NCBI RefSeq assembly: GCF_029392895.1
Contig: NZ_CP114200.1
Coordinates: 434,001-498,000 of the forward strand
Length of the DNA: 64,000 nucleotides
Direction of reading: 5' to 3'
Origin: Streptomyces sp. 71268
Lineage (GTDB): Bacteria; Actinomycetota; Actinomycetes; Streptomycetales; Streptomycetaceae
The position numbers and the translations under genes are program-made. Below the pieces are notes generated by a model. It had not been told where the DNA came from, made no database searches, and saw only the letters and a program-made list of their open reading frames with translations. Shown here one piece after another: positions 26,371-64,000 of the stretch (position 1 is the stretch's first letter; every line of letters begins with the position of its first letter).

Positions 26371-26377
26371 ACGCGGG

Positions 26378-26383
26378 ACACTA
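26378..26383 (-). promoter_or_regulatory. Candidate -10 for a leaderless Phd-DUF6461 transcript
   Basis: TAGTGT (minus strand) lies seven bases before the ATG at 26370. No Shine-Dalgarno is seen. Confidence 0.3.
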
Positions 26384-26633
26384 CCGACGGCGACTGACAC
26401 CGAGCCCGGAGGGAGCCGGCCTGGTCGTTGGCGGCGACCTCTCCCAGCCTCGGGTCGGTCGCCCCTCACGTGCACGCGGCCGGGTCCGCGGGCGATGCCC
26501 CCGCCATGCCTCGCGTTGTCGCGCGAACCGATCGAGTGGCACATATGACCTGCGTCACACGCCACGGGGAGCGGGGTCCTCGCAGAGGCTGGTGGGGTCA
26601 CAGTGTTCGGAGTCGAGGAAACGAGGTGGAGAC

Positions 26634-27671
26634 GTGGTGGCACGTCGTACGGTGGTCAAGGCGGCGGGCGGCGGCGCGCTCGCCAGTGGCCTGCCGAAGT
26701 CCGCCGCGGGCGCCTCCGGGACCGCCGCCCGGAGTGACGTGCTGCTGGTGGTGGAGAAGAGCAGCCACGCGGTCAGCTTCTACGACGTCACGTCGGGCCG
26801 GCGCCTGGGCTCCGTCCAACTGCCCGACTACCCCCATGAGATGGTCGTCGACTCGCGGCGGCGCTACGCCTACGTCGGGCACTACGGCGTCCGCATGGCC
26901 TCCACCATCGGCGAGGGCGGCGCCGCCGTCTTCGTGGTCGACCTCCACGAGCGGTCCCTGTCCCGGACCATCGACATCCGCCCCTACAACCGCGTCCACG
27001 GCATGGGCATCGACGACCGGGACCGGTTGTACGCGCTCAGCGAGGAGAAGGCGGTGCTGCTCGGATTCGACGATCCGGCCACCGACCGGGCGCCCACCAG
27101 GGCGGTGCCGACACACGGGGTGAAGACCCACCTCTTCTCCCTCACCCGCGACGGTGAACGGGCTTATGTCACCGGTCTGTTGTCGCACACGGTGAGCCTG
27201 GTCAGGCCGTACGACGCTGCGGTTACCCCGGTCCTCGTGACGCCTGGGCAGCTACCGGAGAGCAGTTGCCTGAGCACGGACGAGGAGACGCTGTTCGTCG
27301 GCGCCCGCGGGAGTTCCACCCTGGTCGCCGTCGACGCCCGCACCATGCGGGTGCGGCGGAGCCGGAAGGTGGGCGGCGACCCGCTGCGGGTCTACACCCT
27401 CGACGAGGACCGGCTGCTCGTGACGGACATCGTCGGCAACACCCTCACCGTGTGCGCCACCGCGGACCTGCGGCCCCTGCGCACCCTGCGGCTCGACGGA
27501 GTCCCGGCCGCCGTCTCGCTCCACCCCGACGAGGCGGTGGCGTACGTGTCCCTGCTCGACCGCGACCGGATCGCCGTCGTCGACCTCGACCGCCTGACCG
27601 TCACCGGCGGCTTCGCCACCCGGTCGGAGCCGGACGTCTCGGTACTTCTGCCCGCCGCCCGGGCTCACTGA
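26634..27671 (+). CDS. Tat-exported YVTN-type beta-propeller protein
   Basis: The protein has 345 aa. The N-terminus V-V-A-R-R-T-V-V-K-A-A-G-G-G-A-L-A-S-G is a twin-arginine signal. The mature part is a seven-bladed propeller with repeating units such as V-D-S-R-R-R-Y-A-Y-V-G and L-H-P-D-E-A-V-A-Y-V-S, similar to YVTN/lactonase folds. It probably acts outside the membrane as a binding or scaffold protein. GAGGTGGAGAC precedes GTG codons at 26634 and 26637. It is divergent from the Phd-fusion gene. Confidence 0.8.
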   Translation: MVARRTVVKAAGGGALASGLPKSAAGASGTAARSDVLLVVEKSSHAVSFYDVTSGRRLGSVQLPDYPHEMVVDSRRRYAYVGHYGVRMASTIGEGGAAVFVVDLHERSLSRTIDIRPYNRVHGMGIDDRDRLYALSEEKAVLLGFDDPATDRAPTRAVPTHGVKTHLFSLTRDGERAYVTGLLSHTVSLVRPYDAAVTPVLVTPGQLPESSCLSTDEETLFVGARGSSTLVAVDARTMRVRRSRKVGGDPLRVYTLDEDRLLVTDIVGNTLTVCATADLRPLRTLRLDGVPAAVSLHPDEAVAYVSLLDRDRIAVVDLDRLTVTGGFATRSEPDVSVLLPAARAH

Positions 27672-27738
27672 GGACGCGGACGGAAGGCCGGGGTGACGCG
27701 CCGACGGCGTGCGGCCTGGGGCCGGCTCTCGCAGGAGG

Positions 27739-28920
27739 TCAGAAGGCGTACCGCACACGCAGCCAGGGCGCGCGCGTCCGGATCATGCGGGACAGGGTCT
27801 CGACGGCCTGGGGTTTGACCGTGTTGCGGTAGCGGACGTTCAGGGCGCCGTTCTCGGACCTCTTGGGCTGCTGGAGGTCCGGCTGCCACAGGACGTCCTC
27901 GGCGCGGGGGTGCCAGTCCAGGTTGACCTCGTGCAGGTCCTGGTTGTGGGTGAGCATGATGATCTCGGCGGCGGCCTGCTCCTTCACCCGGTGCGGGAGT
28001 ACGTCGTCCATCATGCGCAGCAGGTCGTCCCAGGCCTCGCGCCAGCCCGGGCGGATCACCACCGGGGAGAGGTTGAAGTGCACCTCGTAGCCGGCGTCGA
28101 GAAAGTCGGCGGCCGCCTCGACGCGGGCGGGGACGGGGCTGGTCCGGATGTCGAGGAGTCGGGAGTCGTCCGGCGGCATGAGGGAGAAGCGGATGCGGGT
28201 GCGGCCCTGCGGGTCGAGCCGCAACAGGTCGGGATTGACCAGCTTGGTCGCGAAGGACGCCTTGGCCGTGGGCCAGCGGCGGAACGCGCGGACGAGGTCG
28301 GCGGTGTTGTCGCTGATCAGGTCGTCCACCGAGCAGTCGCCGTTCTCGCCGATGTCGTAGACCCAGGCCCGCTCGTCGCACTGGTTGGGCTCCTTCTTCG
28401 GGCCGGTGGCGGCGAGGTGGCGGCCGAGGGCCCCCAGGACGCGGTCGACGTTGGTGAAGACGGTGATGGGGTTGGCGAACCCCTTGCGACGCGGGACGTA
28501 GCAGTACGCGCAGGCCATGGCGCATCCGTTGGACAGGCCGGGGGCGATCCAGTCGGCTGACCGCCCGTTGGGGCGGACGGCGAGGGAGGTGCGTTCGCCG
28601 AGGACCAGTGTCTCCCGCTTGATCCTGACCCACCGCTCGACGTTCCCCTGGTTGCCGTGGAGGTGCGGGATGCGCCAGTGGGAGTCCGTCTCGATGACTT
28701 GGGCGTCGGGGAAGCGTGCGATGATCTGCCGGCCCCGCCAGGACGCGGCGGCGGCCGGCTCAGCGTGGATCTCCCTCACCCGCAGCAGTCCGCGCGCCTG
28801 GGGCCCGTCGCGGAACGGCCGGTGTTCCCGTGCCCGGGTGGGCGTGGCCGCGGCCACCAGCTCCGCCATGCCGAACAGGCCCTCGGACTCGCCGGCCGGC
28901 TCCCGGGGAGGTCGTCCCAT
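27739..28920 (-). CDS. Radical SAM protein of the spore photoproduct lyase family
   Basis: The protein has 393 aa. The radical-SAM cluster is Cys133-x3-Cys137-x2-Cys140 (N-G-C-A-M-A-C-A-Y-C-Y-V-P), typical of SPL and SPL-like enzymes. The segment R-F-S-L-M-P-P and the rest of a TIM-barrel follow. SPL reverses 5-thyminyl-5,6-dihydrothymine in DNA after UV. Whether this actinomycete homologue has that activity is unproven. The start may be ATG 28920 or GTG 28932. It lies 94 bp after a T4 endonuclease V-like gene on the same strand. Confidence 0.85.
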   Translation of the reverse strand: MGRPPREPAGESEGLFGMAELVAAATPTRAREHRPFRDGPQARGLLRVREIHAEPAAAASWRGRQIIARFPDAQVIETDSHWRIPHLHGNQGNVERWVRIKRETLVLGERTSLAVRPNGRSADWIAPGLSNGCAMACAYCYVPRRKGFANPITVFTNVDRVLGALGRHLAATGPKKEPNQCDERAWVYDIGENGDCSVDDLISDNTADLVRAFRRWPTAKASFATKLVNPDLLRLDPQGRTRIRFSLMPPDDSRLLDIRTSPVPARVEAAADFLDAGYEVHFNLSPVVIRPGWREAWDDLLRMMDDVLPHRVKEQAAAEIIMLTHNQDLHEVNLDWHPRAEDVLWQPDLQQPKRSENGALNVRYRNTVKPQAVETLSRMIRTRAPWLRVRYAF

Positions 28921-29014
28921 TGTCCGCTCCACTCCGCTTCCTCGCGAGCTTCATCGGCCACCTGAGCCGTGACCGATACCGAGGCTTTTGCCCAAGTCTA
29001 CGAAGTCCCGGCCG

Positions 29015-29497
29015 TTACCCCGCCCGGCCGTCGCCGGCCCGGTCGGAGGCCGGCCAGAGGTAGGGAAGATCGTCCGGTACGCCGGGGAAGTGGGGACGGT
29101 AGTACGTGGGGTCCTTGCGCACCAGCGCCGACTGGTGGCTGCGGTGGAACGCGGGGTCGCCGAGCCAGGGCGGCAGCTCGCCCGCCGTCGCGAGCCCGGC
29201 CTGCTCGCGCACCTCGGCCGACGGGCTCCAGGCGCGGTAGTCGGTGATGAGGGTGAGGGAGCAGGTGTCGGCTCGCCCCTCGGCGGTCCAGGTGGCGCAG
29301 ACGTCCAGGCCGTACCGCACCAGGGCCTCCTCGTACCCGGCCCACATCCGCACCGCGGGGTGCCGTCGCCACCCGTACGTCGGCACGGTCAACCCCCGGA
29401 ACACCTGGAGCGCCTCGACGCGCTGCTTGCCGAGACGCCTCGGGTCCAGGACGGCCGCGGAGTCGGAGAAGTTCGCGTACGGGAGAAATGTCTGCAT
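29015..29497 (-). CDS. T4 endonuclease V-like (pyrimidine-dimer glycosylase family) protein
   Basis: The protein has 160 aa. It opens M-Q-T-F-L-P-Y-A-N-F, with L-D-P-R-R-L-G-K-Q-R-V-E-A-L-Q-V and a C-terminal S-H-Q-S-A-L-V-R-K-D-P-T-Y-Y, the layout of the small Pyr_excise family found in actinobacteria. In T4 endonuclease V the N-terminal residue attacks the pyrimidine-dimer nucleotide; the actinobacterial version has not, to my knowledge, been shown to do so. ACGAGGTAC precedes the ATG. It is followed by an SPL-like gene, suggesting a joint UV-damage role. Confidence 0.72.
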   Translation of the reverse strand: MQTFLPYANFSDSAAVLDPRRLGKQRVEALQVFRGLTVPTYGWRRHPAVRMWAGYEEALVRYGLDVCATWTAEGRADTCSLTLITDYRAWSPSAEVREQAGLATAGELPPWLGDPAFHRSHQSALVRKDPTYYRPHFPGVPDDLPYLWPASDRAGDGRAG

Positions 29498-29655
29498 GTA
29501 CCTCGTGTCCCCACGACGGGGCTCCCACTCACCCGGGTGTCACCCGGGGCGGGAGGTGCGGTCGGGGCGACCGGAGACGCGGCGCGCCCTTTCGGCCATG
29601 CCATGGAGCGCCCAAAGCGTCGGCGTCGGCTGCTCCTGATCACCGTCGCCATCGC

Positions 29656-29678
29656 CCGTACCATACGGTATGGTACGG
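29656..29678. promoter_or_regulatory. Perfect palindromic operator for the TetR gene
   Basis: An 11-bp perfect inverted repeat (29656-29666, 29668-29678) with one central base lies 61 bp upstream of the TetR start at 29739. It contains ACCATAC/GTATGGT. This is the expected autoregulatory site. Confidence 0.75.
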
Positions 29679-29738
29679 AGAGAGAGGCCGCGTGGGCGAG
29701 TCTCGGGGTCGGCGTTCGACGGGTGGGGTGGTGCGCTC

Positions 29739-30422
29739 ATGGCGGGGAAGCGGGACTGGCTGGAGGCGGGGCTCGCGGTGCTGGCCGCCGACGGGGCGGG
29801 AGCCGTGACGATCGATCGGCTGTGCGGCGATCTGGGTCTGACGAAGGGCTCGTTCTACCACCACTTCAAGGGCATCACCGGGTTCAGGACCGAACTGCTC
29901 GCCCACTTCGAGGCCGAGTCCACGACCCGTTTCATCGAGGCGGTGGAGGATGTCCCCGGCCCGACCGGGGCCAAGTTCACTCACCTGCTCGACCTGGCAC
30001 TCGCCGACGAGGGCGACCGTCCGGGGCTCGAAGTCGCCGTCCGCGCCTGGGCGCTGGGGGACGTCGAGGCCCGCGCGGCACAGCGGCGCATCGACGAGCG
30101 GCGCATCGCCTACCTGCACGACCTGCTGTGCGAGAGCGCGGCCCCGGACGCGGCGGCCGACGCGCGCCCAACGCCGTCCCCGGCCCTGGGTACCGCGAGC
30201 CAGGCCATCACCCCCGGCGCGGCGGCCGTCGCGTCCGAGACGGGTGGCGTCCACACCGGCGCGGACGGGAAGTCGCGCGACTGGCTACCCCTGGCCCGGC
30301 TGCTCTACCTGGTGCTGGTCGGCGGAGGCCACCTCGTGCCCCCGCTACCCGCGGAGGAACTCCGCGACATCTACCGGCTCGCCTCCCGGCTGGCGCCCGG
30401 CGGGCCCTGGGAGGAAGCGTGA
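29739..30422 (+). CDS. TetR/AcrR family regulator
   Basis: The protein has 227 aa. The helix-turn-helix runs about residues 5-50 (I-D-R-L-C-G-D-L-G-L-T-K-G-S-F-Y-H-H-F-K). A flexible Ala/Pro/Gly stretch (about 137-180) sits in the C-terminal domain. The ATG at 29739 is chosen; an ATG at 29670 lies inside the operator and is unlikely. Its stop overlaps the GTG of the downstream DUF6463-like gene (GTGA), so the two form an operon under the palindrome. Confidence 0.88.
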   Translation: MAGKRDWLEAGLAVLAADGAGAVTIDRLCGDLGLTKGSFYHHFKGITGFRTELLAHFEAESTTRFIEAVEDVPGPTGAKFTHLLDLALADEGDRPGLEVAVRAWALGDVEARAAQRRIDERRIAYLHDLLCESAAPDAAADARPTPSPALGTASQAITPGAAAVASETGGVHTGADGKSRDWLPLARLLYLVLVGGGHLVPPLPAEELRDIYRLASRLAPGGPWEEA

Positions 30423-30940
30423 CCATCGACAAGCACAGCCACCACTTCTCCGACCGACCCACCGCCGACTCCGCGCCGGACGGCACGGGGCCGGTCACTC
30501 GCGAGGCCCACGGCCCCGACGGTCCCGGCGGCGCGCGGCCGATCGGCGCGCCGGGCCGCTGGGTGCCGAGGCTGCTGATCGCGACGGCGGTACTGCACTT
30601 CGGCTGGGCCTTCGCCCAGCCGAACGCCTGGACGGACATCGTGCGGGACGGCTTCGTCGGCACCGTCGTCGACACGGAAGCGGACGGGTACTGGCCGCGC
30701 GAGGCGTCCGTGTGGTTCATGGCCGCGGGCGTCACGCTGCTCGCGCTGGGCACCCTGACCCGGCACATCGTGCGTACCACCGGGCGGGTTCCGCCACAGC
30801 TCGGCTGGTACCTGCTCCTCCTCGGCATCCCGACCTCGGCCATCTACTTCCCCGTCACCGGGAGTTGGGCCCTGATCGGCATCGGCGCCCTCGCACTGGC
30901 GGACGGGCGGTCCGCGCGCGGAAGCCGCGACCGCCCCTGA
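30419..30940 (+). CDS. DUF6463-like small membrane protein
   Basis: The protein has 173 aa. After a charged N-terminus (about 50 residues, His/Pro/Gly-rich) come four hydrophobic helices (about 53-68, 97-116, 127-140 and 146-162). F-A-Q-P-N-A-W and Y-F-P-V-T-G-S-W-A-L-I are recognisable family motifs. The function is unknown. The GTG start overlaps the TetR stop by four bases. Confidence 0.75.
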   Translation: MTIDKHSHHFSDRPTADSAPDGTGPVTREAHGPDGPGGARPIGAPGRWVPRLLIATAVLHFGWAFAQPNAWTDIVRDGFVGTVVDTEADGYWPREASVWFMAAGVTLLALGTLTRHIVRTTGRVPPQLGWYLLLLGIPTSAIYFPVTGSWALIGIGALALADGRSARGSRDRP

Positions 30941-31054
30941 CACCGGCGCGCCCCGCCGCAGGCCGGGCGCCGCCCGCCGCACCGGACCGAGCCCACCAGA
31001 GCCGCGGAAATCGGCGCCCACCCGACACGGCGGCCGGGCGCTCTCCTTGCCCAG

Positions 31055-31425
31055 GTGACAGCGGGGCTGGCAGCGGGCGCCTTCAACGTCGACCCGGACC
31101 GCCTCGCCGAACGGGGCGGCTTCCCGCCGACCATGCGCATCCGCAACTCGGGGCGGACGACCCACCAGAACGGGTCGATCGGCGCGGCGTACACGCCGGT
31201 GACCGACAACCTCATGGGACTCGGTACGGCGACCCCGTCGGCCGGTGGCTGTAATGCCGAGAACCGGGACGCGACCAAGATCTACTCCCCGCCCAGCCAG
31301 CCGATCGAGCGGACCACGGCCAAGTACAACGGCAAGGCCCGGAAGGCCAAGTGGGAGGCGAAGGACAGTGCCCCGGGCACCGGGGCCGACGCCGAGCGCT
31401 CGGGGCGCGGAAGGGCCCTGCCCCC
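31055..31425 (+). pseudogene. Orphan coding-like ORF, origin unknown
   Basis: A GTG at 31055 opens a frame with strong third-position GC through about 31420 (G-A-F-N-V-D-P-D-R-L-A-E-R-G-G-F-P, N-G-S-I-G-A-A-Y-T-P-V-T-D-N). It then runs into the 3' end of the convergent flavin reductase and stops at 31501. I do not recognise the protein. It may be a truncated relic or a real small gene. Confidence 0.35.
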
Positions 31426-32121
31426 TCAGTTGAGCGCCGTGTCGGCGAGCGCGGGCTCCGGGGCAGGCTCCTCGAAGTCGCGGGGTGTCTGGGTGCGGTA
31501 GGAGTGGCCGAGCTCCGGGCCGAGTCCGAAGTAGTGGCGGAAGTTGTAGATGAGAGGGCTCCAGGCGGCGGGGTCGATGTGGTCGGTGCCGGGGACGACG
31601 ATGCGGGAGTCGGCGTGCACCGTGCACACGACGGCCTCGACGATGACGAAGTCCCCGGAGACATCCAGCCGCACCCGCTCGGCGCGGGCCTCCAGTTGGA
31701 TCGGGCATCCGGCGACGCGAGGTGGCCGGACCAGATGGGACGGTTCGCTGGACATACCGGCCGCGGCGAACTTGTCCGGCTCGAAGCGGCAGCCCTCGGG
31801 CTTGCTCGTGGGCACCGGATTCCGGCCGGTCAGCGGCGCCAACCGCTCCACCGCAGGCCACTGGTTGGGCGCCGGCAGGTTGATGACCAGGTCGGGGCGG
31901 CTGCCGAGGTTGTACGCGGTCTGCCCCTCACGGCCCAGTCCGATTACGACCGTCCGCCCAAGGGCCCATGCGGAGGATATCGGGGCGAGGTTGAACGAGC
32001 CGTCCTGGTTCTCCGTCGACAGGAGCACCACCGGCGTCCCGAAGTACAGGATGCTCGGCTCGATCTCCAGGTGGGTGGCGACTGTCTGTGCGGGCAAGGT
32101 GCTGGGGGGTGCCGTGTTCAT
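31426..32121 (-). CDS. Flavin reductase-like (split-barrel FMN-binding) protein
   Basis: The protein has 231 aa with a flavin-reductase-type core. The opening L-E-I-E-P-S-I-L-Y-F-G-T-P-V-V-L-L-S-T, then N-L-A-P-I-S-S-A-W-A-L-G and N-L-G-S-R-P-D-L-V-I-N-L-P match the DIM6/NTAB family that binds FMN. It may supply reduced flavin or reduce a substrate. The ATG at 32121 is chosen because the upstream frame is unlike the family. It lies at the left edge of the gene-free region before the NRPS cluster and may or may not belong to it. Confidence 0.8.
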   Translation of the reverse strand: MNTAPPSTLPAQTVATHLEIEPSILYFGTPVVLLSTENQDGSFNLAPISSAWALGRTVVIGLGREGQTAYNLGSRPDLVINLPAPNQWPAVERLAPLTGRNPVPTSKPEGCRFEPDKFAAAGMSSEPSHLVRPPRVAGCPIQLEARAERVRLDVSGDFVIVEAVVCTVHADSRIVVPGTDHIDPAAWSPLIYNFRHYFGLGPELGHSYRTQTPRDFEEPAPEPALADTALN

Positions 32122-34055
32122 GGCGAGCAGCCTAAAATCGGGTCGTTTCGGCCGGGGCCGAAGTGACAACGGTGGTCGCCGCCGCCCGCCCCGGGTAGCC
32201 CGCTCCAGCTCGGACAGCCGGCGGCTGGCTGAAGGTCTATGCCGCCACATGTGCTGTCCACCGAGGCGGATCGCGCATCGTGGTCCCCTGCCTGCCGTCG
32301 ATCGGTGCGTCGTGTGTTCGAGGCGGCATCGAGGGCCCGCCTCCCGTGCCACACCCCGACCGGCGCACTCCGGCGGCCGGAGGTGAGCGCGTACGCCCGG
32401 CTCGCCCGCCGCCGGCGACATCACGTCGGTGCGCGGCGCTCCGGCGTACGCCTGTCGCCCCGAGTGTGAGGCCGGGCCCGGGTATCGGCGTGCTGCCGGC
32501 GGGTGAAGCAAGGGGGCGGCCAGTACGGGCGGGGGGCGTCAGTCGCGTCGCGACGGGCGTGGGGCGGGTGCGGGCTGGGGGAAAGTGTCCGCGTGGGCTC
32601 TGGAGCCGGCCGCCGGGTGCGATCCGTTGCCGAGCAAATGGTACTGCTCCTACCAGCCGACAACGTTTTCCTTTCCTTTTTCCTCGGCACGGCGTCGAAA
32701 ACGCGACAGCCCTCCCCAGAGGGGGGCGCACGGCAATACCGCAGCGCACCACCCGGCGCAAGACGGCGAATGCGGCCAGCTAACCTCCTGTTGACGTGCC
32801 GCTTTCGATTGGGATCACTCTTGACCGAGTCACCCTCTTTCCTTCAAGAGCACTGGTCAGCGGGGTGTCCACCGATCGCCCCACACGCACATAAGAACCC
32901 TCGGCAACCATCTACTTGCGAGTAACGATTAGCGGGAAACCACCCGCCCCGTCCGCAACAGAGGTTTCGCTCCCTACCGTCGAGTAAGGAAATGGGGCAC
33001 GAAATCACCCCCCGCACCTCCGGGCAGTGTTGCGATCACGCGGCGAGAAGTGAAGACTGTCGGCCGGGCTTGGGTGGCGTGAAAGCGTCGGAGGGTTCAT
33101 CGTCAGTACCATCAGACACACTCACGTTCACATCCCAGCGTTTTCGTCTGTCTTTTCCGGGCACTCTTTGCCAGTGCATCGTGCGCCCAGCGTTCGACGG
33201 TTTGAGCACGTGCCGTTTGATCGACCGGAGAGGACACCGCAAACACGCTTCGCAGAAGGGGGCTTCTCACGCGGCGTGTGCGGGACGGAGGCGAGCTGTG
33301 GTGGCGTGCCACCGCGTGCTCGCGGTAAGGGCAGGTCGAAGGAGGGGGCTTCGTCGGCCTGCGCGGTCCATGATCAGGGGTTTCGGAGGGGATGGTCCCA
33401 ATGGCATGCGCCAAGGGGCGGCAAGGGGCTCGGCCCGAGGAAGCGGAAGGAGGCGTGGCATGGGAGACCGCGCCCCCACCAGAGGTGTGAGCGGTAGGCG
33501 GAGCCGTATGCCGCGACCGTCGACGAACGGGGCCCGGCGGCGCCGGGTCCGCTGACCGCGCGCCCACGGCGCCGGCGTCGGGGCGGAGCGGCGACTTCGT
33601 CGAGAATCACAGCGCGGCACCGGTGGGGATTCGCCGACTTTGGCGTTTCCCGGCGTCCCACGTCGCGTGATGTGCGGAGCGATAGCAGGGTTCGGCGCCC
33701 CACTCCCAGCTGCCTGTTGACGCGACTTTCTGCCGGGCGAAGATTTCGGCCTGCCCGTATTCGCTTTTCCGTCGCGCCGCCCTTTCGCGTACCACTGGAT
33801 CGAAATACGCGAACACCATTTCGACTGCGGACGAGTCCGCACCTGATCAGAATGGTCAGGGCCGCCGCCCCATTCCCGTGTCCGCACCAAGGAATTAAGC
33901 AGAAGTCGGGCAGATATGTGAACGACCTGTGATAAAAATCTGCGGTGGAGCATGGCGTCCACATCTTTCGAGGCCCATCGGCGTCGATGACTGCCGCATG
34001 CGTCCAACCGGCGAGGAACGAGCCTCTCCGGGAAGTTCACACTGAAGGGGGACCG
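32122..34055. promoter_or_regulatory. Gene-free, relatively AT-rich 1.9-kb region upstream of the NRPS operon
   Basis: No frame here has recognisable protein features. Counted by eye, 33781-33960 is roughly 57% GC, and 32641-32700 about 55%, well below the surroundings. An inverted repeat CTCTTGA...TCAAGAG lies near 32819-32852. The region contains T-runs (32660-32682) and AT-rich patches such as 33921-33940. It is probably the control region of the cluster, perhaps also holding decayed sequence or a small RNA (inference). Confidence 0.5.
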
Positions 34056-35282
34056 GTGACCGGCAGCAGGGCGAGTGAGGCGCCGTTCGTGTACGAGGAA
34101 CTGGTCAGCCGGTGGGAGGGGCTGCGCGAGGGCGCACCGGTGCGCTATGACGAGCAGCGGAAAACGTGGCTGGTGACCGATCACGAGAACGTCGCCCAGG
34201 TCCTCTCCGACCCGAAGGTTTTCTCCTCCGACTTCTCCGGGCTGACCCCCACCCAGGAGGACTTCGAGGATTTCCGGCAGGGCAACTTCGTGGGCATGGA
34301 CCCGCCCCGCCACCGCACCCTGCGTGCCCTCGTCAGCCAGGCGTTCACGCCCCGCGTGGTGGCCGACCTGGAGCCGAGAATTCACGCGATCACCGAGGAA
34401 CTGCTCGACGCCGTCGACGGCCAGGACCAGTTCGACGCCGTGGACGCCCTGACCTATCCGCTCCCCATCATCGTCATAGCCGAGTTACTGGGCATACCCG
34501 TCAGCGACCGGCCGCTGTTCCAGGAGTGGGCGACCACGCTGTTCGGCGGAGACGACCTCGGCGACACGCTGGAGATGGCCGACATCGAGCAGGCGCTGAA
34601 GGCCATCGCGCCCACCGTGCGCGAGATGAACGGCTACTTCCTGGACCACATCCGCCACCACCGCAAGAACCCCGGCGACGACCTGACCAGCAAGCTGGTC
34701 CTGGCCGAGGCGGAGGGCACGCGGCTGAGCGACCAGGAGATCGTCGGCTTCGTGGCCCTGCTGCTGGTCGCCGGGCACATCACCACCACCGCACTGCTGG
34801 GCAACGCCCTGCTCTGCTTCGACCGGCACCCCGACGCGGTCGCGCCATTGCGGGCCGACCCCGGGCTGCTGCCCCGGACCGCCGAGGAGGTGCTGCGCTT
34901 CCTGCCGCCGTTCCCCGAGTTGGGTCGCCGCACCACCCGGGAGGTGGAGTTGAGCGGCGCGGTCATCCCGGCCGACGCCATCGTGACGGCCCACCTGGGT
35001 GCCGCCAACCGCGACCGGACCCGGTTCGCCGACGCCGAGGCCTTCGACCCGGCCCGCGACCCCAACCCCCACCTGACCTTCGGTCACGGCATTCACTTCT
35101 GTTTCGGCGCCCCGCTGGCGCGGATGGAGGCCCGGATCGGCCTGCGGCTGCTGCTCGAACGGTTCTCCGACATCGCCGTCGCCGACCGCGGCGGCATCGT
35201 GACGCAGAACCCGGCCGTCATCGTCGGCCCCCGCCACCTGCCGCTGCGCGTGCGCAGGGCCCCGCGTCGTACCGCCGGATAG
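34056..35282 (+). CDS. Cytochrome P450 of the NRPS cluster
   Basis: The protein has 408 aa, normal for a soluble bacterial P450. The I-helix oxygen-binding motif is A239-G-H-I-T243. The K-helix E-x-x-R is E278-V-L-R281. The haem loop F-G-H-G-I-H-F-C-F-G has the axial ligand Cys349. The GTG at 34056 is preferred to an ATG at 33945 because GAAGGGGGACCG precedes it and the length fits. It is the first gene of a co-directional set with the PBP-type thioesterase and two NRPS genes. It probably hydroxylates or cross-links the peptide or a building block; position unknown. Confidence 0.92.
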   Translation: MTGSRASEAPFVYEELVSRWEGLREGAPVRYDEQRKTWLVTDHENVAQVLSDPKVFSSDFSGLTPTQEDFEDFRQGNFVGMDPPRHRTLRALVSQAFTPRVVADLEPRIHAITEELLDAVDGQDQFDAVDALTYPLPIIVIAELLGIPVSDRPLFQEWATTLFGGDDLGDTLEMADIEQALKAIAPTVREMNGYFLDHIRHHRKNPGDDLTSKLVLAEAEGTRLSDQEIVGFVALLLVAGHITTTALLGNALLCFDRHPDAVAPLRADPGLLPRTAEEVLRFLPPFPELGRRTTREVELSGAVIPADAIVTAHLGAANRDRTRFADAEAFDPARDPNPHLTFGHGIHFCFGAPLARMEARIGLRLLLERFSDIAVADRGGIVTQNPAVIVGPRHLPLRVRRAPRRTAG

Positions 35283-35439
35283 GCGGGTCCCGCGGTCATC
35301 GGCCGGGCCCGCCCGAGGAAGACCGGTCGCCCGGCGGTGGCCGGACCGGGATTGCGTGCGCGCCGCCCCACCGGGGGCCGTTGCCACGCCAGGCGGCCGC
35401 GCCGCTCCCGCGAGTATCGAGTTCCAGGAGTTTCGTCCC

Positions 35440-36795
35440 ATGTCCCACGTCCCCACCGCCCCGAGCGCCAGCCGGCGAACGCGCCCGTTATCCGACCCCC
35501 TGACCGAGTTACTGACCGACCTCGCGCGCGCCCACCGGGTGCCCGGGGCCCAACTCGCCGTCCACGTCGACTCGGTGACGCACGCCGCGCACACCGGGCA
35601 CGCGGACGCCGCGACAGGTGAGCCGTTCACCGCCGAGACGGCGGTCCCGATCGGCAGCGTCACCAAGACCTACACGGCCACGGCCCTGATGATCCTGGTC
35701 GCCGACGGGGACATCGACCTGGACGAGCCGGTGGCGGACCACGTGCCGGAGCTGCGGCGCGCGCCGCGGTTCACCGTGCGCCAACTGCTCGGCCACACGG
35801 CCGGGCTGTCGACCGGCCCCGACTCGGACGAGGCGGCGGCGCTGAGCACGGCGCGCTACCTGTCCGCGCACTGCGCCGCCGGGGCCGCGGTGGGCGCGCC
35901 CGGCTCCGGGTTCTCCTACTCCAACGCCGGGTACGTCGCCGCGGCGCGGGTCGTCGAGGCGGTGACCGGCATGCCGTGGGAACAGGCCGTGCGGACGCTG
36001 GTCCTCGAACCCCTGGGGACGGTCCCCGCGTTCGTTGGCGACCGGTCGCCGCGCCGGCCGGTCGCCGGCGGGCACGCCGTCCACCCGTCGAGCGGCCGGG
36101 CGCTTCCCGTACGGCAGACGCTGGCTCCGGTGGAAGCCCCGGCGGGTGCCCTGCTGGCGAGCGCGCTGGACCTGGTCGCCCTGGGCCGCGTGGTCGCCGG
36201 GCACGGGCCCGTCTCGGTGCTGGCGCCGGAGGCAGCCGAGGAGATGCGCCGACCCGTGGCGGGTGCCGACCCCGGCGTCCTGGCCGACGGCTGGGGCGCG
36301 GGCCTCGCGCTCTTCCGGGAGGGCACCGCGCTGTGGTGCGGCCACGACGGCAACGCGCAGGGCACCTCCTGCCACCTGCGGGCCGAACCGGAACTGGCCG
36401 CTGTGGTGGCCTTCACCTGCAACGGCGGCAACGGCACCGAGCTGTGGCACGCGTTGGCCGACGGCCTGGCCGACATCACCGGGCTGCGGGTCCCCACCGC
36501 CGCCCGGGCCCCCGAGCGGGGCCGTGCCGTGTCGCTCCCCCAGTGCGCCGGGACGTACCGCAACGGCGCTCTGGAGTACCGCGTCACGGCGGACGCCGAG
36601 GGCGCGCTCGCGCTGTCCGTGGGCGGCGACACCCCGGCGCCGCTGGTCTGTTACCCGGACCTCACCTGTGACCTGGTCGATCCGGCTTCGGGCCGGCACC
36701 TGCCCGGCGGTCGCTTCCTGCGCGATCCGCACAGCGGTGCCGTCGACCGGGTGCAGATCTCCGGTCGCACCGCGCGCCGCACCGCCGACCTCTGA
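35440..36795 (+). CDS. Stand-alone PBP-type thioesterase (SurE-like peptide cyclase)
   Basis: The protein has 451 aa with a class C beta-lactamase/penicillin-binding-protein fold. The active-site triad motifs are Ser73-V-T-Lys76, Tyr160-S-Asn162 and His302-D-Gly304. A C-terminal beta-rich lipocalin-like domain spans about 340-451. There is no signal peptide, so it is cytoplasmic, unlike real PBPs. In surugamide, desotamide and mannopeptimycin clusters such enzymes release the peptide from the last PCP and cyclise it head-to-tail in trans. Placement directly before NRPS genes that lack an in-line TE supports this role. CCAGGAG precedes the ATG. Confidence 0.88.
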
Positions 36796-36946
36796 CGCCC
36801 GCTCACCGCCGCGCTCGGGACGATCCCCGGACTCCGTCCCGCCCCGAGCCGGCCCCTTCGCCGAGCCCCCCGCCGTCCGCGACGGCTGCCGCGGGGTGCC
36901 CGGCGGCACGCCGCACCTTTCGTCCCCGCCGAGAAGGATCACCGCC

Positions 36947-55527
<18,581 letters not shown>

Positions 55528-55531
<4 letters not shown>

Positions 55532-58500
55532 GGGCCGACGACATGACGTCTTCGAACTCGAAGCAGAACCGTGCCGCGGCCCTGCCGCGCGACCTCCAGG
55601 AGGCGCTGCGCCGGCGCCTGGCCGGCAAGGCCGGCCCGGCCGCCGGGGGCGGGGGCGGCATCCCGCGCGCGGACCGCTCCCGGCCGCTGCCGCCGTCCTT
55701 CGCCCAGCAGCGGCTGTGGCTCCTGGACCAGTTAGAGCCGGGCGACGCCCGCTACAACAGCGCGGTCGCGCTGCGGCTGACCGGCGAGCTGGACCGGGAG
55801 GCGCTCGCCGGGGCGCTGCGAACCGTCGTGGCCCGCCACGAGGCGCTGCGCACCACCTTCGACACCGACGACGGCCGGCCGGTGCAACGGGTTCGCCCCG
55901 CGGGCCCGGTGGAGCTACCCGTACGCGACCTGACGGCGGGGGCGGAGGCCGGCCTGGACCCGACGGCACCGGACGCGGACCCGGGGGCGGCGCTGGAGGC
56001 GGCGCTGCTCGCGGAGTACGCGCTCCCGTTCGACCTGCGCGGCGGTCCGCTGCTGCGGGCCGTGTTGCTGCGCGCCTCGGGCACCGAGCACGTCCTACTC
56101 GTCACCGCGCACCACACCGTCACCGACGGCTGGTCGATGGGCGTGCTGGTGGAGGAGGTGTGCGCCGCCTACGACGCTCTGGCGCGCGGCGAGGAACCGG
56201 CGCTGTCCCCGGTCGCCACCCAGTACCCGGACTTCGCCGCCTGGCAGCGCGAGCGGCTGGCCGGCGCGGCGCTGGAGGAGCACCTCGCCTACTGGAAGAA
56301 GCAGTTGGACGGCCTGGAGCCGCTGGAGCTGCCGCTCGACCGCCCGCGCGAGGGCCGGGAGGCCGGGGACGGCGCCGTGCACACCTTCGCCGTCCCGGCG
56401 GCCACCACGGCCCGGCTGCGGGAGCTGGCGGCGGGGCAGCACACCACGCTGTTCGCCGCGCTGGTCGCCGCCTGCCAGGCGCTGTTCGCCCGCTGGTCGG
56501 GGCAGGACGACATCGCCGTGGGCTCGCTGACGCCCGGCCGTGGGCGCACCGAACTGGAGCGCGCGGTGGGCCTGTTCGTCAACACGGTGGTGCTCAGGAC
56601 GCCGGTGGACACCGCCCGTTCCTACCGGGAACTCCTCGCCGCCTCCTCCACCACGGTGCTCGACGCCTTCGCCCACGACGACGTCCCCTTCGAGCGGCTG
56701 GTGGACGCGGTGGGCGCGGCCCGTGAGGCGGGGCGCAACCCGCTGTTCGACGCCATGGTCCTGCTCCACCCCGCCCCGCCGGCCGCGCCCGCCCCGCACG
56801 GCCTAGCGGTCGAGCCGGTCACCGTGCCGCGCCGCTCGGCCACCTTCGACCTGAGCGTCGAGTTCGTACCCGACGGGGACGGGCTGGCCGGCCTGCTGGA
56901 GTACCGCACCGACCTGTTCGACGCGGCGACCGCCGCCCGCATGGCCGGGCAACTGGTGGCCCTGCTCGCCGGTGTCGCGGCCGAACCCGACAGGGCGCTG
57001 GGCGAGTTGGACCTGCTGTCGCAGGCGGAACGGCGGCTGCTGCTGGAGGAGTGGAACGCCACGGCCCGGCCGGTGCCGCCCGCCACCTACCCGGAGCTGT
57101 TCCAGGCGCGGGTCGCCCGCACCCCGCGCGCGACGGCGCTGGTGGCCCGCGACGCCACGTTGGACTACGCCACCCTCAACGCCCGCGCCAACGTCCTCGC
57201 CCACCACCTCATCGCGCGCGGCGCGGGGCCCGAACGACTGGTGGCGGTGCGACTGCCGCGCACCGCCGACATGGTCGTCGCGATCCTGGCCGTGTGGAAG
57301 TCCGGCGCCGGATACCTGCCGGTGGACCCGGAACTGCCCGACGAGCGGATTCGGCTGCTGCTGGCGGACGCCGAACCCGCGCTGCTGGTCGACGAGGAGA
57401 CGCTGCGCGAACTGCCCGCCGCAGGCCGCGAGGACGACCCCACCGACGCCGACCGGCTCGGCCCGCTGAGCCCCGACAACACGGCGTACGTCATTTACAC
57501 CTCCGGCTCCACCGGCCGCCCCAAGGGCGTGTCCGTCGAGCACCGTTCGCTGGCGAACCTGCTCGCCGCGCACCGTGGGGGCTTCGTCGCCGACGCCGGC
57601 GGCGGCCCGCTGCGGGTGGCCCTGACCGCGTCGTTCTCCTTCGACACCTCGCTGGAGGGCGTGCTGCTGATGGTCGACGGCCACCGGCTGCACCTGGTGG
57701 ACGAGGCCACCCGGCTCGACCCGGCCGCCCTGGTGGAGTACGTCGTCGAGCACCGCGTCGACTTCCTCGACGTGACCCCCTCCTACCTGCGGCAGTTGCT
57801 GCCCGCCGGGCTGCTCACCGACCCCCGTCACCACCCTCGGGTGCTGATGCTCGGCGGCGAGGCCGTCGGCCCCGCGCTCTGGCGCGAGCTGGCCGGGCTG
57901 CCGGACGTGGCCGCGTACAACTTCTACGGGCCCACCGAGTGCACCGTCGACGCGCTGGCCTGCCCCGTGGACGGCACGGTGCGGCCGGTGGTGGGCCGGC
58001 CGCTGGACAACGTGCGCGCCTACGTGCTGGACGGCCGGGGGCAGCCGGTGCCCATCGGCGTCGGGGGCGAGCTGTACCTGGCGGGCGACCAGGTGGCGCG
58101 CGGCTATCTGCGCCGGCCGGGGCTGACCGCCGCGCGCTTCGTGCCCGACCCGTTCGGCCCGCCCGGCGGCCGGATGTACCGCACCGGTGACCTGGCCCGG
58201 TGGACCTCGGACGGGCGGCTGGACTACCTGGGCCGCGCCGACGACCAGGTCAAGATCCGCGGTCACCGGGTGGAGCCGGGCGAGGTGGAGGCGGCGCTGA
58301 CGGCGCTGCCCGAGGTGGCCGAGGCAGCCGTCGTGGCGGTCTCCGACGAGCGCGGCCACGCCCGGCTGGCCGGCTACGTGGTGCCCGCGGCGGGCGCCGA
58401 GCGGCCGGCGCCCGCCGCGTTGCGGCAGGCGCTGTCGCTGACCCTGCCGCGCCACCTGGTGCCCGCCGCGTTCGTCGTGCTGGACGCGCTGCCACTGACC

Positions 58501-61500
58501 GTCAGCGGCAAGCTGGACCGGCGCGCGCTGCCCGCCCCCGACCCGGACGCCACGGCGGGCGAGCGGGAGCTGACCGCGCCGCGCACCGCGACGGAGCGGG
58601 AACTGGCCGGGATCTGGTCGGCCGTGCTGGGCGTGGCCCAGGTGGGCGTCGACGACAACTTCTTCGAGCTGGGCGGCGACTCGATCCTCGGCATCCAGAC
58701 GGTGTCCCGGGCCAGGTCCGCCGGGCTGCACGTGACCTCACGGGACGTCTTCCTGCACCAGACCGTCACCGAACTCGCGGCCGCCGCCGACCGGCGCGCC
58801 GCCCCGCCGGTCACCACCGCGCCGCAGCAAGAGGCCGGGCCCGGCCCGCTGGCCCCGATCCAGGAGTGGTTCCTCGCCACGCACGGACCGCTGGGGCACT
58901 TCGCCATGTCGATGCTGCTCGACCTGCCGCGGGAGACCGACCCGGGCGCCCTGGAGCGCGCGCTGCGCGCCGTGGCCGCCCACCATCCGGCGCTGGGCAC
59001 CCGGTTCGTCCGCGAGGACGGCGCCTGGCGCCAGTACCCGATGGCCGACGACGCGGCGAAGGCCCCCGGCCTGCTGGTCCACCGCGAGGTGCCACGGGCC
59101 GAGGGCCCCGCCAGGGAGACGGCCCTGCGTGCGGTGGCCGACGAGTTGCGCGCCGGGCTCGACCCGGCCGACGGCACGCTGTTGCGCGCCGCCCTGCTGC
59201 GCCCGGAGGCCGGCGAGCGCCCGCAGTTGCTGCTGACCGCCCATCACCTGGGCGTCGACAGCGTCTCCTGGCGCATCCTGCTGACCGACCTGGAGAGCGG
59301 CTACCGCCAGGCGGCCGCCGGCGCCGAGGTCCGGCTGGAGCCGGCGACCACGCCGTTCACCACCTGGACCGAGCGGCTGGCCCGCTGGGTGGCCGCGGGC
59401 GGGCTCGACGCGGACCTGCCGTACTGGACGCGGGAGAGCGAGCAGCCCCGCGCCCCGCTGCCCGTGGACCGGCCCGGGGTGCCACTGGCCGGGTCGGTGC
59501 GCACCGTGCGCGCCGGGCTGTCGCGCGAGGCCACGAAGGCGCTGCTGCGCCAGGTGCCGGCCGCGTACCGCACCCGCGTCGACGACGTGCTGCTCAGCGC
59601 CGTGTGCCGGACGCTCGCCGACTGGACCGGCTCCGACCGGGTGACCGTGGCCCTGGAGGGGCACGGCCGACAGGAGATCGAGGACGGGCCGGGTACCGGG
59701 AACGGCGCGGAGGAGGCGCCGGACGCGAGCGCCGCCGGCGCGGCGCCCGCCGTGGACCTGTCCCGTTCCGTGGGCTGGTTCACCGCCCAGTACCCGGTCA
59801 CCTTCACCCTGGACGGGGCGGGGGCGGCCGAGCCCGACTGGGGCGCGGTGCTCAAGTCGGTCAAGGAGCGGCTGCGGGCCGTGCCCCGGCGCGGCTTCGG
59901 TTACGAGGCGCTGGCGCGCCTTGACTCGCCGAACCAGGCGGCGCGCGCGCTGCGCGAGGTGCCGCTGCCGCAGGTGTGCTTCAACTACCACGGCCAGTGG
60001 GACTCCGCGCCTGGCGGCGACTTCGCCCCGGCGGGCGAGGTACCCGGCGGTGAGATGGCGGCCGGTGAGCGGCTCGACCACCTGCTCGACATATCGGCGG
60101 TCGTGGCCGACGGCGTACTGGAGACCACCTGGCACTACAGCGACCAGGTGCACGACGAGGGCACGGTGCGCGACCTGGCCGAGGCTACGGTGCGGGCCCT
60201 GACCGCGATCGTCGAGCACTGCGCGCTGCCGGGGGCCGGCGGGCGCACCCCGTCCGACTTCCCGCTGGCCGGTCTGGATCAGGCGCGGGTGGACCGGCTG
60301 GCCGGTGACGGGCGCGCGGTGGAGGACATCCTGCCGCTGACGCCGTTGCAGGAGGGCATGGTCTTCCACCGCCTGTTGGACGGCGCGGACGACGACGTCT
60401 ACCTCGACCAGGCCGCCCTGCTGCTGGACGGGGTGGCGGACCCGGAGGCTTTCGCCCGCGCCTGGCAGCGGGTGGTGGACCGCACGCCCGCCCTGCGCAG
60501 CCGCGTCGTGTGGGAGGACGTGCCGCGACCGGTGCAGGTCGTCGACCGCCGGGCCGAGGTGCCCGTGGAGCACCACGACTGGCGGGAGTTGGACGAGGCC
60601 GGGCGCGCGCGGGCGCTCGCCCGGCTGAAGGAGCGCGACCTGGCGCGCGGCATGGACCTGGGCACCGCGCCGCTGCTGCGGCTGTCGCTGGCCCGGCTGC
60701 CCGGCGACGGCCTGCACCTGGTGTGGACCTCGCACCACCTGATCCTGGACGGCTGGAGCCTGGCACAGGTGCTGACCGAGGTGTGCGAGGAGTACGCGGC
60801 GCTCGTCGCGGGCCGCTCGTACGCGCCGCCACGCCGCCGCCCGTTCGGCGACTACGTGCGCTGGCTGGCCGGGCGGGAGGGCCGGGCGCGGGAGACCGAG
60901 GAGTTCTGGCGTACCGCCCTGGTCGGGTTCGCGACGCCGACGCCGCTGCCCTATGACCGGCCGCCCCGCGAGGCCCACCGCTCGCGCTCGGCGGAGGTGG
61001 TGGCCGCCGCCCTGCCCGTCGAGGTGTCACGGGAGCTGGCGCGGGCCGCGCAGCGCCGCGGGCTGACCCTGAACACCGTGGTGCAGGGCGCGTGGGCGCT
61101 GCTGCTGTCCCGCTACACCGCCGAGCCCGAGGTGGTGTTCGGCACCACCGTCTCGGGTCGCCCGGCGGAACTGGACGGCGTGGAGTCCATGGTGGGCATG
61201 TTCATCAACACGCTGCCCACCCGGGTCCGGGTGGACGGGGACCGGCCGGCCGCGGCCTGGCTGCGCCAGGTACAGGACGCGCAGGCGGAGGCGCGCCGCT
61301 TCGAGGCCGTGTCGCTGGCGCGGGTGGCCGCCCTCAGCGACGTGCCGAGGGGCACCGCGCTGTTCGACAGCATGGTCGCCTTCGAGAACTACCCCTTCGA
61401 CGACGCCCGCACCGCCGACGCCGGCGTCCGCGTCCGGGAGGTGGCCTCGCGCGACGCCACCAACTTCCCCCTGGTGCTGCGCGCCTACCAGAGCGACCGG

Positions 61501-64000
61501 CTCGGGTTCGACCTCGCCTACGACCCCGAGTTGTTCGACCCTGCCACGGCGCGGGCCGTCGCCGACCGGCTGTGCCTGCTCCTTCGTGAGCTGGCGGCCG
61601 GCCCGGACCGGCCGCTGCGGGAGCTGGCCTGGACGACCGCCGACGAGCGCCGCCGCGTGCTGGTCGACTGGAACGGCACCCAGCGGGGGCACTCGGGGAA
61701 GACCCTGGTGGACCTGTTCGAGGCGCGGGTGGCCCGCACCCCGGACGCCGTGGCGGTGAGCGGCCCGGACGCCACCCTGACGTACTCCGAACTCGACGCC
61801 GCCGCCGGCCGGTTGGCGCACCGGCTCGCCGAGTGCGGGGCCGGCCCCGAGCGGTTCGTGGCACTCGCCCTGCCCCGTTCGACGGAGCTGCTGGTGGCGC
61901 TGCTCGCGGTGGTGCGGAGCGGGGCAGCGTACGTGCCGATCGACCCGGAGCTGCCCGCCGGCCGGATCGCCCACCTGCTGGGCGACGCGGCACCGGAGCT
62001 GCTGGTGACCACGGGCGCCGTCGCGGACCGGGTACGGGAGGCCGACTGCCCCCGGCTGCTCCTGGACGACCCCGACGTCCGGGCCGACCTGGCCCGTAGG
62101 CCCGCCGCCGGGCCGGGCCTGGCCCACCGCCCGCACCCCGGGCACCCCGCGTACGTGATCTACACCTCGGGCTCCACCGGGCTGCCCAAGGGCGTGGTGG
62201 TGCCGCACTCCAACGTGGTGCGGCTGCTGGAGCGCACCCGGGACTGGTTCGGCTTCGACGAGCACGACGTGTGGACGCTGTTCCACTCCTACGCGTTCGA
62301 CTTCTCCGTCTGGGAGATCTGGGGCGCGCTGGCGCACGGCGGGCGACTGGTCGTCGTCCCGCACGACGTGGCCAGGTCGCCGAAGGACTTCCTGCGCCTG
62401 CTGGTGGACGAGCGGGTGACGGTCCTCAACCAGACGCCGTCGGCGTTCCAGCCGCTGGTGCGCGCGGACGCCGAGCACCCGGAGCTGGGCGACCGGCTGG
62501 CGCTGCGCCGGGTGGTCTTCGGTGGCGAGGCGTTGGAGCCGGGACGGCTGACCGACTGGTACGAGCGCCACCCCGACACCGCGCCGGTGCTGGTCAACAT
62601 GTACGGCATCACCGAGACCACGGTGCACGTCACGTACGCGCCGCTGGATCGCGCCACCGTCACCGGAGCCACCTCCAGCGGCATCGGCCGTGGCATCGGT
62701 GACCTGCGGGTGTACGTGCTCGACGGCGGCCTCGCGCCGGTGCCGCACGGCGCGGTGGGCGAGATGTACGTCGCGGGAGAGGGCCTGGCCCGGGGCTACC
62801 TGAACCGGCCTGGCCTCACCGCCGCGCGCTTCGTGGCCGACCCGTTCGGCCCGGCGGGGACGCGCATGTACCGCACCGGCGACCGCGCGCGGTGGCGGGC
62901 GGACGGCACCCTGGACTACCTGGGTCGGGCCGACCAGCAGGTGAAGATCCGCGGGTTCCGCATCGAGCCGGGCGAGATCGAGGCCGCGCTGACCGCGCAC
63001 CCCGCCGTCGCCGACGCCGCGGTCGGCGTGCGCGAGGACACCCCGGGCGTGCGGCGGCTGGTCGCCCACGTCGTGGGCGCGGACCCGGCCGCGCCGCCGT
63101 CTGCCGCCACCCTGCGCGCCCACCTGGGAGAGCGGCTGCCCGCGCACATGGTGCCCGCCGCGTACGTCACCCTGGAGGCGCTGCCGCTGACCGTCAACGG
63201 CAAGCTCGACCGCCGTGCCCTGCCCGCCCCCGACCGGGACGGCTACGCCGCGACCGGCGAGCGCGTCGCTCCGCGCACCGAGGCCGAGCGGCTGGTGGCC
63301 CAGGCGTGGTCGCAGGTGCTCGGCACGGGCGAGGTCGGCGCCGATGACGGCTTCTTCGCCCTTGGCGGTGACTCGATCCTCGCCGTCCGCGTCGCCTCCC
63401 GGCTGCACGCCGCCCTCGGCGTGGAGGTCTCCCCACGGCTGTTGTTCACCCACCCCACGGTCGCGGAGCTGGCCGCGGCCCTGCCCGCCCCGAGGTCGGC
63501 CGCCGCGCCGGCCGAGGCGATCCCGGCGGCCGACCGCACCGGCCCGCTGCCGCTGTCGCCCGCCCAGCGGCGGCTGTGGTTCCTGGACCGCTTCGAGCCC
63601 GGCGGCACCACGTACGTGACGCTGTCCGCGCTGCGGCTGCGCGGCGCGCTCGACGTCCGCGCCCTGCGCGCGGCCCTCGACGGCCTGGTGGCCCGGCACG
63701 AGCCGCTGCGCACCACGTTCGCCGACGAGGACGGCCGGGCCCGCCAGCGCGTCGGACCGCCGCACCCGGTGGACCTGGCGCGCACCGACCTGTCGGCCAC
63801 GCCGCCGGACGAGCGCGCCGCCGCGCTCGACGCGCTGCTGGCCCGCGAGGCCGGCGCCCCCTTCGACCTGGCGCGCGGGCCGCTGCTGCGGGCCGGGCTC
63901 GTACGACTGGCCGCCGACGAGCACGTGTTGACGCTGGCCGTGCACCACATCGCCACCGACGGCTGGTCCTCGACCGTACTCGGCCGGGACCTGGCGGAGC
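55528..64000 (+). CDS. Second NRPS, at least modules 6-8, 3' end outside window
   Basis: The visible part has 2,824 codons and stays open to the window end. Order: C6-A6-PCP6-E6; C7-A7-PCP7; C8 (partial). The ATG at 55528 overlaps the stop of the first NRPS (ATGA); an in-frame ATG at 55543 with AGGG upstream is the alternative. Phosphopantetheine serines are Ser1052 and Ser2616. Codes: A6 DTEDMGFVDK (acidic pocket, basic residue), A7 DFWNVGMVHK (Thr). C6 and C8 are L-C-L type, C7 is D-C-L. The basic N-terminal helix ([12 protein letters not shown]) may dock on the acidic C-terminus of the first protein. No TE is visible. Confidence 0.93.
55660..60260 (+). other. NRPS module 6: C6-A6-PCP6-E6 (D-basic residue)
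   Basis: C6 has H-H-T-V-T-D-G. A6 pocket D706-T-E...D...D gives code DTEDMGFVDK; three acidic lining residues besides Asp706 predict Arg, Orn, Lys or a relative. E6 has [10 protein letters not shown] (His1239) and a 20-residue acidic/Ala insertion (about 59680-59755) after E-G-H-G-R-Q, absent from E2-E4. Confidence 0.8.
60300..63490 (+). other. NRPS module 7: C7-A7-PCP7 (Thr)
   Basis: C7 has S-H-H-L-I-L-D-G and a D-C-L opening, matching E6. A7 code DFWNVGMVHK matches the classical Thr code with one conservative change (V for I). A7 also carries N-M-Y-G-I-T-E-T-T in place of Y-G-P-T-E-T-T, common in Thr/Ser-group domains. Residue 7 is L-Thr; no E follows. Confidence 0.85.
63530..64000 (+). 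other. NRPS module 8: C8 (partial)
   Basis: An L-C-L-type condensation domain opens [14 protein letters not shown] and reaches H-H-I-A-T-D-G-W before the window ends. At least one more module follows, so the peptide has eight or more residues. Confidence 0.85.

Follow-up and report, generated by a model that had tools for sequence, protein, structure and literature searches.

The window analysed here, a 64,000-nucleotide stretch of the single-contig, 8,379,354-base genome of the soil bacterium Streptomyces sp. 71268 (G000:C1:434001-498000), enters over its right-hand part what is very probably a complete orphan cluster whose genes together make a decapeptide cyclised head to tail. On the plus strand, and all co-directional, we found genes for a P450, a stand-alone penicillin-binding-protein (PBP)-type thioesterase (TE) and two nonribosomal peptide synthetases (NRPS1 and NRPS2), followed by genes for an MbtH and a GNAT protein (gene calls and Pfam). 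The gene order, the domain order, the intact motifs, the absence of a TE from either NRPS, the homology of the cyclase and the conservation of the locus were all observed directly.

NRPS1 (36947..55531, 6194 amino acids) was read from gene calls, Pfam and motifs as A1-T / C-A2-T-E / C-A3-T-E / C-A4-T-E / C-A5-T, where A, T, C and E are adenylation, carrier, condensation and epimerisation domains. NRPS2 (55543..75660), read in the same way as C-A6-T-E / C-A7-T / C-A8-T-E / C-A9-T / C-A10-T-E, crosses the end of the window, with 55543..64000 inside it and the stop at window coordinate 75660 (L002:11660). Each gene holds five modules, ten in total, with E domains in modules 2, 3, 4, 6, 8 and 10. 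Core motifs were intact throughout: the Ser was present in 10/10 T domains, HHxxxD in 9/9 C and 6/6 E domains, and EGHGR in all six E domains. By motif, the C domain that follows an E domain was of the DCL type in all five cases at this locus, and the remaining C domains were of the LCL type. NRPS1 has no starter C domain and opens with A1, and the chain would therefore start from a free amino acid. No TE was found by Pfam in NRPS1 or NRPS2, nor in the scanned neighbours (seven genes at 25318-33552; MbtH, GNAT and one more gene; three genes at 77865-82345). An earlier, sequence-only reading of the window had described a P450, a 451-residue protein with S-x-x-K, Y-S-N and H-D-G motifs, a five-module NRPS lacking a TE and a second NRPS, all co-directional, and gene calls, Pfam and motifs confirmed each of these. 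It had also held that a type I TE closing the second or a later NRPS would speak against it; NRPS2 ends at 75,660 in an E domain, and since neither NRPS carries a TE, that objection falls away for both genes.

The thioesterase gene (35440..36795, plus strand) encodes 451 amino acids and, judged by motifs, Protein Data Bank (PDB) matches and a tree, a homologue of trans-acting macrocyclases. Its catalytic motifs are SVTK at S73, YSN at Y160 and HDG at H302; YSN and HDG, together with the Ser and Lys of SxxK, are conserved in 19/19 loci. Among the best 60 of 117 PDB matches listed, the best solved relatives were 6ksu (2.6e-67), which is SurE (PMC11735501), and 8fek, “PBP cyclase Ulm16” (1.4e-60). 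The alignment to 6ksu spans residues 19-447 of 451 and fits, at the level of sequence, a PBP domain with a C-terminal lipocalin-like domain. The Pfam label of the protein is Beta-lactamase, which would suit a common DD-peptidase or a beta-lactamase-like protein with no link to the NRPSs; we consider this extremely improbable, since 6ksu and Ulm16 scored far above the beta-lactamases in the same set of listed matches, the frame lies immediately before NRPS1 in 19/19 loci (our own and those of 18 relatives), and no other release enzyme was seen. Among the NCBIfam families shown, the P450, the cyclase and the GNAT all fell below cut-off, the GNAT reaching 39 bits against BlmB, for which the cut-off is 625. 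A second beta-lactamase-fold protein is encoded at window coordinate 81200-82345 (L002:17200-18342), and its sole matches in the relatives' loci, at about 27-34%, were on the cyclase gene.

PBP-type TEs link the L residue at the N terminus of a peptide with a D residue at its C terminus (PMC11735501). As is characteristic of such enzymes, the cyclase gene stands alone beside NRPSs that lack a TE, and both an L start and a D end were found, read from domains only: module 1 has neither a C nor an E domain, and the last domain of module 10 is an E domain with intact motifs. The trans-acting PBP-type cyclase and the macrocyclic peptide proposed in the sequence-only reading are supported by cyclase homology and catalytic motifs, by the E domain at the end of NRPS2 and by the lack of a TE in both NRPSs; the 451-residue protein is a putative head-to-tail macrocyclase acting in trans. 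Release of a linear or partly hydrolysed decapeptide, with the PBP-type enzyme being mainly a hydrolase or sharing release with another hydrolase, appears improbable, although PBP-type TEs do hydrolyse their substrates to some extent (cyclisation to hydrolysis ratios are given in PMC11735501). Against it, heterochiral chain ends are kept in the 18 loci with a complete NRPS2. In addition, all 19 loci carry a Gly at the position corresponding to G235 in the C-terminal pocket of SurE, as expected for a cyclase that accepts a bulky D end, the numbering offset of this match assuming Ser63 of SurE as the reference.

The same ten-module order was found in 19/19 loci, with NRPS2 complete in 18 and truncated in S. 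alboflavus, where the contig stops; in this comparison some C and E domains were left untyped by the motif rule, and an additional T hit appeared in G011 and an additional C piece in G126. In 20 further genomes we followed NRPS2 from module 6 on, and in 18 of these one frame showed the same order, while in G196 and G250 it was broken into several frames. Cyclase matches at E <= 1e-60 occurred in 60/392 Streptomyces genomes, and matches of at least 59% identity in 43/392, our own genome included, the next match lying at 47%. The cyclase is therefore widespread in Streptomyces and the line is not a singular one. In a tree of 48 rows (27 of the cyclase group, one outgroup and 20 further PBP-type proteins), the cyclase group formed one side of a branch with support of 100/100, the outgroup and a few other branches being long. 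Kitasatospora matches of 61-63%, among the best 120 of 725 listed, indicated that the group is not limited to Streptomyces.

We read the A-domain codes with a position map (235 to 331) applied by motif, aligning pockets within each domain class. Two calibrations were used: the megalochelin A domains of the same genome, with structure and module assignment taken from PMC10127220, and a surugamide-type cluster from Streptomyces sp. CB01580 with a cyclase that closely resembles SurE. For the surugamide Ile domains two reading methods differed at one position, and the surugamide E domains were labelled C by the motif rule. Within the window, on the plus strand, modules 1 (37439..38614) and 5 (54191..55360), both given from A3 motif to T motif, carry the code DALLIGSVV, pointing to a probably large and hydrophobic X1 and to X5; A10 has the same code and would place a third X in the module with the terminal E domain. 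Module 3 (45116..46864, A3 motif to E core) reads DAYWWGGTF, as does the megalochelin Val module, and was assigned D-Val. A9, with DAFWWGGTF, is one letter off and was also assigned Val, and module 7 (62161..63378, A3 motif to T motif) reads DFWNVGMVH, assigned Thr, the megalochelin Thr modules reading DFWSVGMVH. The CB01580 modules that read DAYWWGGTF and DFWNVGMVH are presumably those for Val and Thr of surugamide F. In whole-domain similarity, own domains aside, A2 was nearest to Ala domains, A3 and A9 to Val domains and A7 to Thr domains; the PDB matches of the A domains gave no substrate.

Modules 2 (40619..42322, A3 motif to E core) and 4 (50078..51421, A5 motif to E core) both read DVFSVAIVY and are predicted to introduce D-Ala. 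D-Ala is the second residue of surugamide A (PMC11012974), and the second module of the CB01580 cluster reads DVFSVALVY, one letter away from A2 and A4. In three papers, DVFSV occurs in piperazic acid codes that end in YAK; we dropped piperazic acid for modules 2 and 4 because DVFSVALVY is the code of a surugamide-type D-Ala module and because the calibrated domain nearest to A2 is one for Ala.

Module 6 (57496..59268, A3 motif to E core) reads DTEDMGFVD, and A8 belongs to a second module of this type, also with an E domain. Each other aside, A6 and A8 were nearest to the megalochelin hydroxyornithine domain (342 and 329 bits), with a clear gap to the next domains (283 and 261), and we therefore took both to activate basic residues, an ornithine-like one being the best guess from similarity. 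Their codes are unlike that of the surugamide Lys domain, DVSDAGTVE. In a looser alignment the third letter of A6 and A8 became L and W rather than E; the ungapped motif FDTSxEG favours E, and position 278 is unaffected. DTEDMGFVD was also seen in a later NRPS frame of an Actinokineospora PBP-type locus (L018:18841) whose first module reads DALAIGAVV, making this locus a possible distant cousin of the ten-module line.

The predicted product is cyclo(X - D-Ala - D-Val - D-Ala - X - D-basic - Thr - D-basic' - Val - D-X). With all three X residues taken as equal, the unmodified ring would give [M+H]+ values, from two Orn at the low end to two Arg at the high end, of 1009.68-1093.72 for Leu, 1111.63-1195.67 for Phe, 1159.61-1243.66 for Tyr and 1228.66-1312.71 for Trp; a hydroxyl would add 15.995, an acetyl 42.011 and a linear form 18.011. 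The sequence-only reading had given the order as X1, D-Y2, D-Val, D-Y4, X5, D-basic, Thr, which held as far as it was visible, but its X8 turned out to be a second basic-type module with an E domain, and its “eight or more” residues were sharpened to ten modules, with Val and a third X bearing the terminal E domain after module 8. For the residue identities, the cyclisation and the roles of the P450 and GNAT, we infer the following route. NRPS1 would start on a free L-amino acid and build L-X1, D-Ala2, D-Val3, D-Ala4 and L-X5, and NRPS2 would extend the chain with D-basic6, L-Thr7, D-basic8, L-Val9 and D-X10. The finished chain, with its D residue at the end, would then pass from the last carrier domain to Ser73 of the PBP-type TE, where attack by the free amine of X1 would complete the macrocycle and set free a cyclopeptide that is cationic and amphipathic. 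MbtH (75840-76043, plus strand; gene calls and Pfam) would assist the A domains, the P450 would alter one residue before or after assembly, and the GNAT (76265-76846, plus strand; gene calls and Pfam) might decorate the product or protect the producer.

Among known systems, surugamide (sur) resembles this locus in its stand-alone PBP-type TE, its NRPSs without a TE, its L start and D end, its shared Val and Thr codes and its near-identical Ala code, and SurE too cyclises a decapeptide (PMC11012974). The two differ in that the SurE relative L020 is 39% identical to our cyclase and lies outside its clade, in their residues and code order, and in that sur has four NRPS genes for two peptides (PMC11012974), whereas here there is one NRPS pair and two basic D residues. 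Neither the SurE-clade cyclase nor the matching residues that mark the surugamide family were found. The pentaminomycin/BE-18257 system (PenA) also combines a PBP-type TE with a P450, the latter proposed to N-hydroxylate the basic residue Arg (PMC7565604), but its products are pentapeptides and PenA is specialised for small rings (PMC11735501). Tyrocidine and gramicidin S are likewise cyclic decapeptides, but they are closed by a fused TE that links a D residue at the start with an L residue at the end (PMC11735501), the opposite chirality to that read here with a trans enzyme. NRPS2 ends in an E domain and not in a tyrocidine-type in-line TE. Both of those peptides are cationic. The predicted cationic, mixed-chirality cyclic decapeptide is a plausible membrane-active antibiotic. 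The ulleungmycin, desotamide/wollamide and dechlorocuracomycin class shares the PBP-type TE and is of hexapeptide size, unlike the ten modules and low gene similarity seen here. Lipopeptide or cinnamoyl-peptide NRPSs of the nyuzenamide/grisgenomycin type have a starter C domain in module 1, where NRPS1 begins with A1.

The sequence-only reading had called the line uncatalogued, which did not hold: for Streptomyces sp. ID71268, a strain close to S. buecherae that we take to be the one studied here, Table 1 of PMC10127220 lists the locus as NRPS region 2 (451,427-529,430), with dechlorocuracomycin as the best known cluster at 8% similarity and no matched metabolite. The locus is thus already catalogued as a region, yet orphan. 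In the same paper megalochelin is region 3 (645,278-735,666), with NRPSs of five, four and four modules (PMC10127220). Three giant NRPS frames that we read as five, four and four modules (L152-L154; 5999, 6834 and 5935 amino acids) lie on the minus strand at G000:C1:665585-716303 and are, by their coordinates, the megalochelin cluster.

The product may instead be a compound that has been described before, a possibility we take seriously while judging it unlikely. With the cyclase group in 43/392 Streptomyces genomes the product may well have been isolated, and our literature search covered open-licence papers, with MIBiG outside it. Among the papers listed from that literature, however, we found no reported product for the ten-module line, and the 8% match to dechlorocuracomycin with no metabolite also speaks against a known compound. 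A term search of PMC9491159 gave no match, and grisgenomycin was dropped because the title of its source calls it cinnamoyl-containing while NRPS1 has no starter C domain. We partly decoded 17 of the 18 matches from outside the clade (loci of 40 kb each, one of 14 kb; O092 with masked stretches), and none was recognised as encoding a named product.

Several observations weigh against a complete cluster for a cyclic decapeptide. The evidence for cyclisation is all homology; no product was assigned to region 2 from the strain extract, made in one medium, in PMC10127220; and no exporter was recognised by Pfam among the flanking genes tested, to window coordinate 82345. The sole regulator seen, a TetR protein, lies 3.7 kb upstream and is beside none of the relatives' loci searched. 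The codes DALLIGSVV, DTEDMGFVD and DTENLGVVD, and close spellings of them, had no match among the open-licence papers listed. Finally, A1, A5 and A10 were about equally near to several calibrated domains, with mixed nearest ones, and the X residues can therefore be described only as large and hydrophobic. The promiscuous module-1 code of pentaminomycin, DALWMGVV (Val/Leu/Phe), resembles DALLIGSVV (PMC7565604).

The P450 (34089..35282, plus strand; Pfam p450, 9.1e-33), a presumed tailoring enzyme, has as its closest PDB entries 4ggv and 4e2p, which we take to be himastatin P450s. Its I-helix reads GHITTT without the usual acid, as in 4ggv, and this is kept in 15/15 aligned orthologues. An orthologue of at least 64% identity was found in 29/39 related genomes and adjoins the cyclase in 28. 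A GNAT of at least 57% was likewise found in 29/39, at the cluster end in 28 and, in S. alboflavus, on a separate contig, its carriers being 28 of the 29 P450 genomes (not G327) plus G332. The A6 code was DTEDMGFVD or DTEDMGFID in 38/39 genomes (those where A6 was read). At A8, all 29 genomes with a P450 orthologue had DTEN[LM]G[VMI]VD, with Asp changed to Asn at position 278, whereas 9 of the 10 without it kept DTEDMGFVD; these nine had neither P450 nor GNAT at our cut-offs, and six of them carry a GNAT of 49-52% elsewhere. A6 and A8 formed two separate clades (100/100) and are old paralogues, so A8 changed in place and not by copying from A6.

We tentatively suggest that the basic residue at module 8 is formed or modified by the P450, perhaps together with the GNAT, and that the A domain of this module was retuned for it, although we regard this as rather less likely than the opposite. 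Residue 8 could conceivably be ornithine-like and either N-hydroxylated or acylated, because A6 and A8 are closest to a hydroxyornithine domain of the same genome. Weighing against the coupling, the nine genomes with D278 form one A8 clade (100/94) and so represent essentially one evolutionary event, which hints at P450 action on residue 8 without proving it. N278 and the GNAT also occur in G332, where no P450 was found, reflecting either later loss of the P450 or an assembly gap. The P450 of G010 is on another contig, G196 carries 48% P450s elsewhere, G295 gave one basic domain only, and G181 and G376 carry a different P450 (34% identity) just downstream. Three genomes without the orthologue (G181, G086 and G376) have two such extra genes, the first, of 408-419 amino acids, lying between NRPS2 and MbtH, the second, of 390-397 amino acids, upstream of the cyclase. 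In G181, the one searched with Pfam, these encode an MFS exporter (L076:3664-4917) and a copper amine oxidase (L074:2295-3464), respectively. Tailoring probably differs in these three, and the oxidase may possibly act on a side-chain amine.

Around the cluster, the stretch at 29739-30940 holds the TetR gene followed by one for a DUF6463 protein, the two frames overlapping by four bases. Downstream, on the minus strand at window coordinate 78434-79849 (L002:14437-15849), lies a gene common to S. buecherae for a caspase-like peptidase (Peptidase_C14) with a phytase-like stretch. Long antisense open frames in NRPS1 (39917-47437, 2506 amino acids, and 47567-54583, 2338 amino acids, minus strand) probably follow from G+C-rich codon usage (74.6% G+C).

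The locus thus represents a conserved ten-module line for which no product was found and whose cyclase is present in about one in nine of the sampled Streptomyces genomes (43/392). Across genomes it supplies naturally diverse PBP-type cyclases, which are expected to close ten-residue rings and would be useful as biocatalysts, and the 39 genomes with and without the P450 amount to a natural experiment on the joint change of tailoring genes and A-domain pockets. If the link between the P450 and module 8 is true, it would be a traceable case of a tailoring enzyme and an NRPS pocket changing together inside one conserved assembly line.

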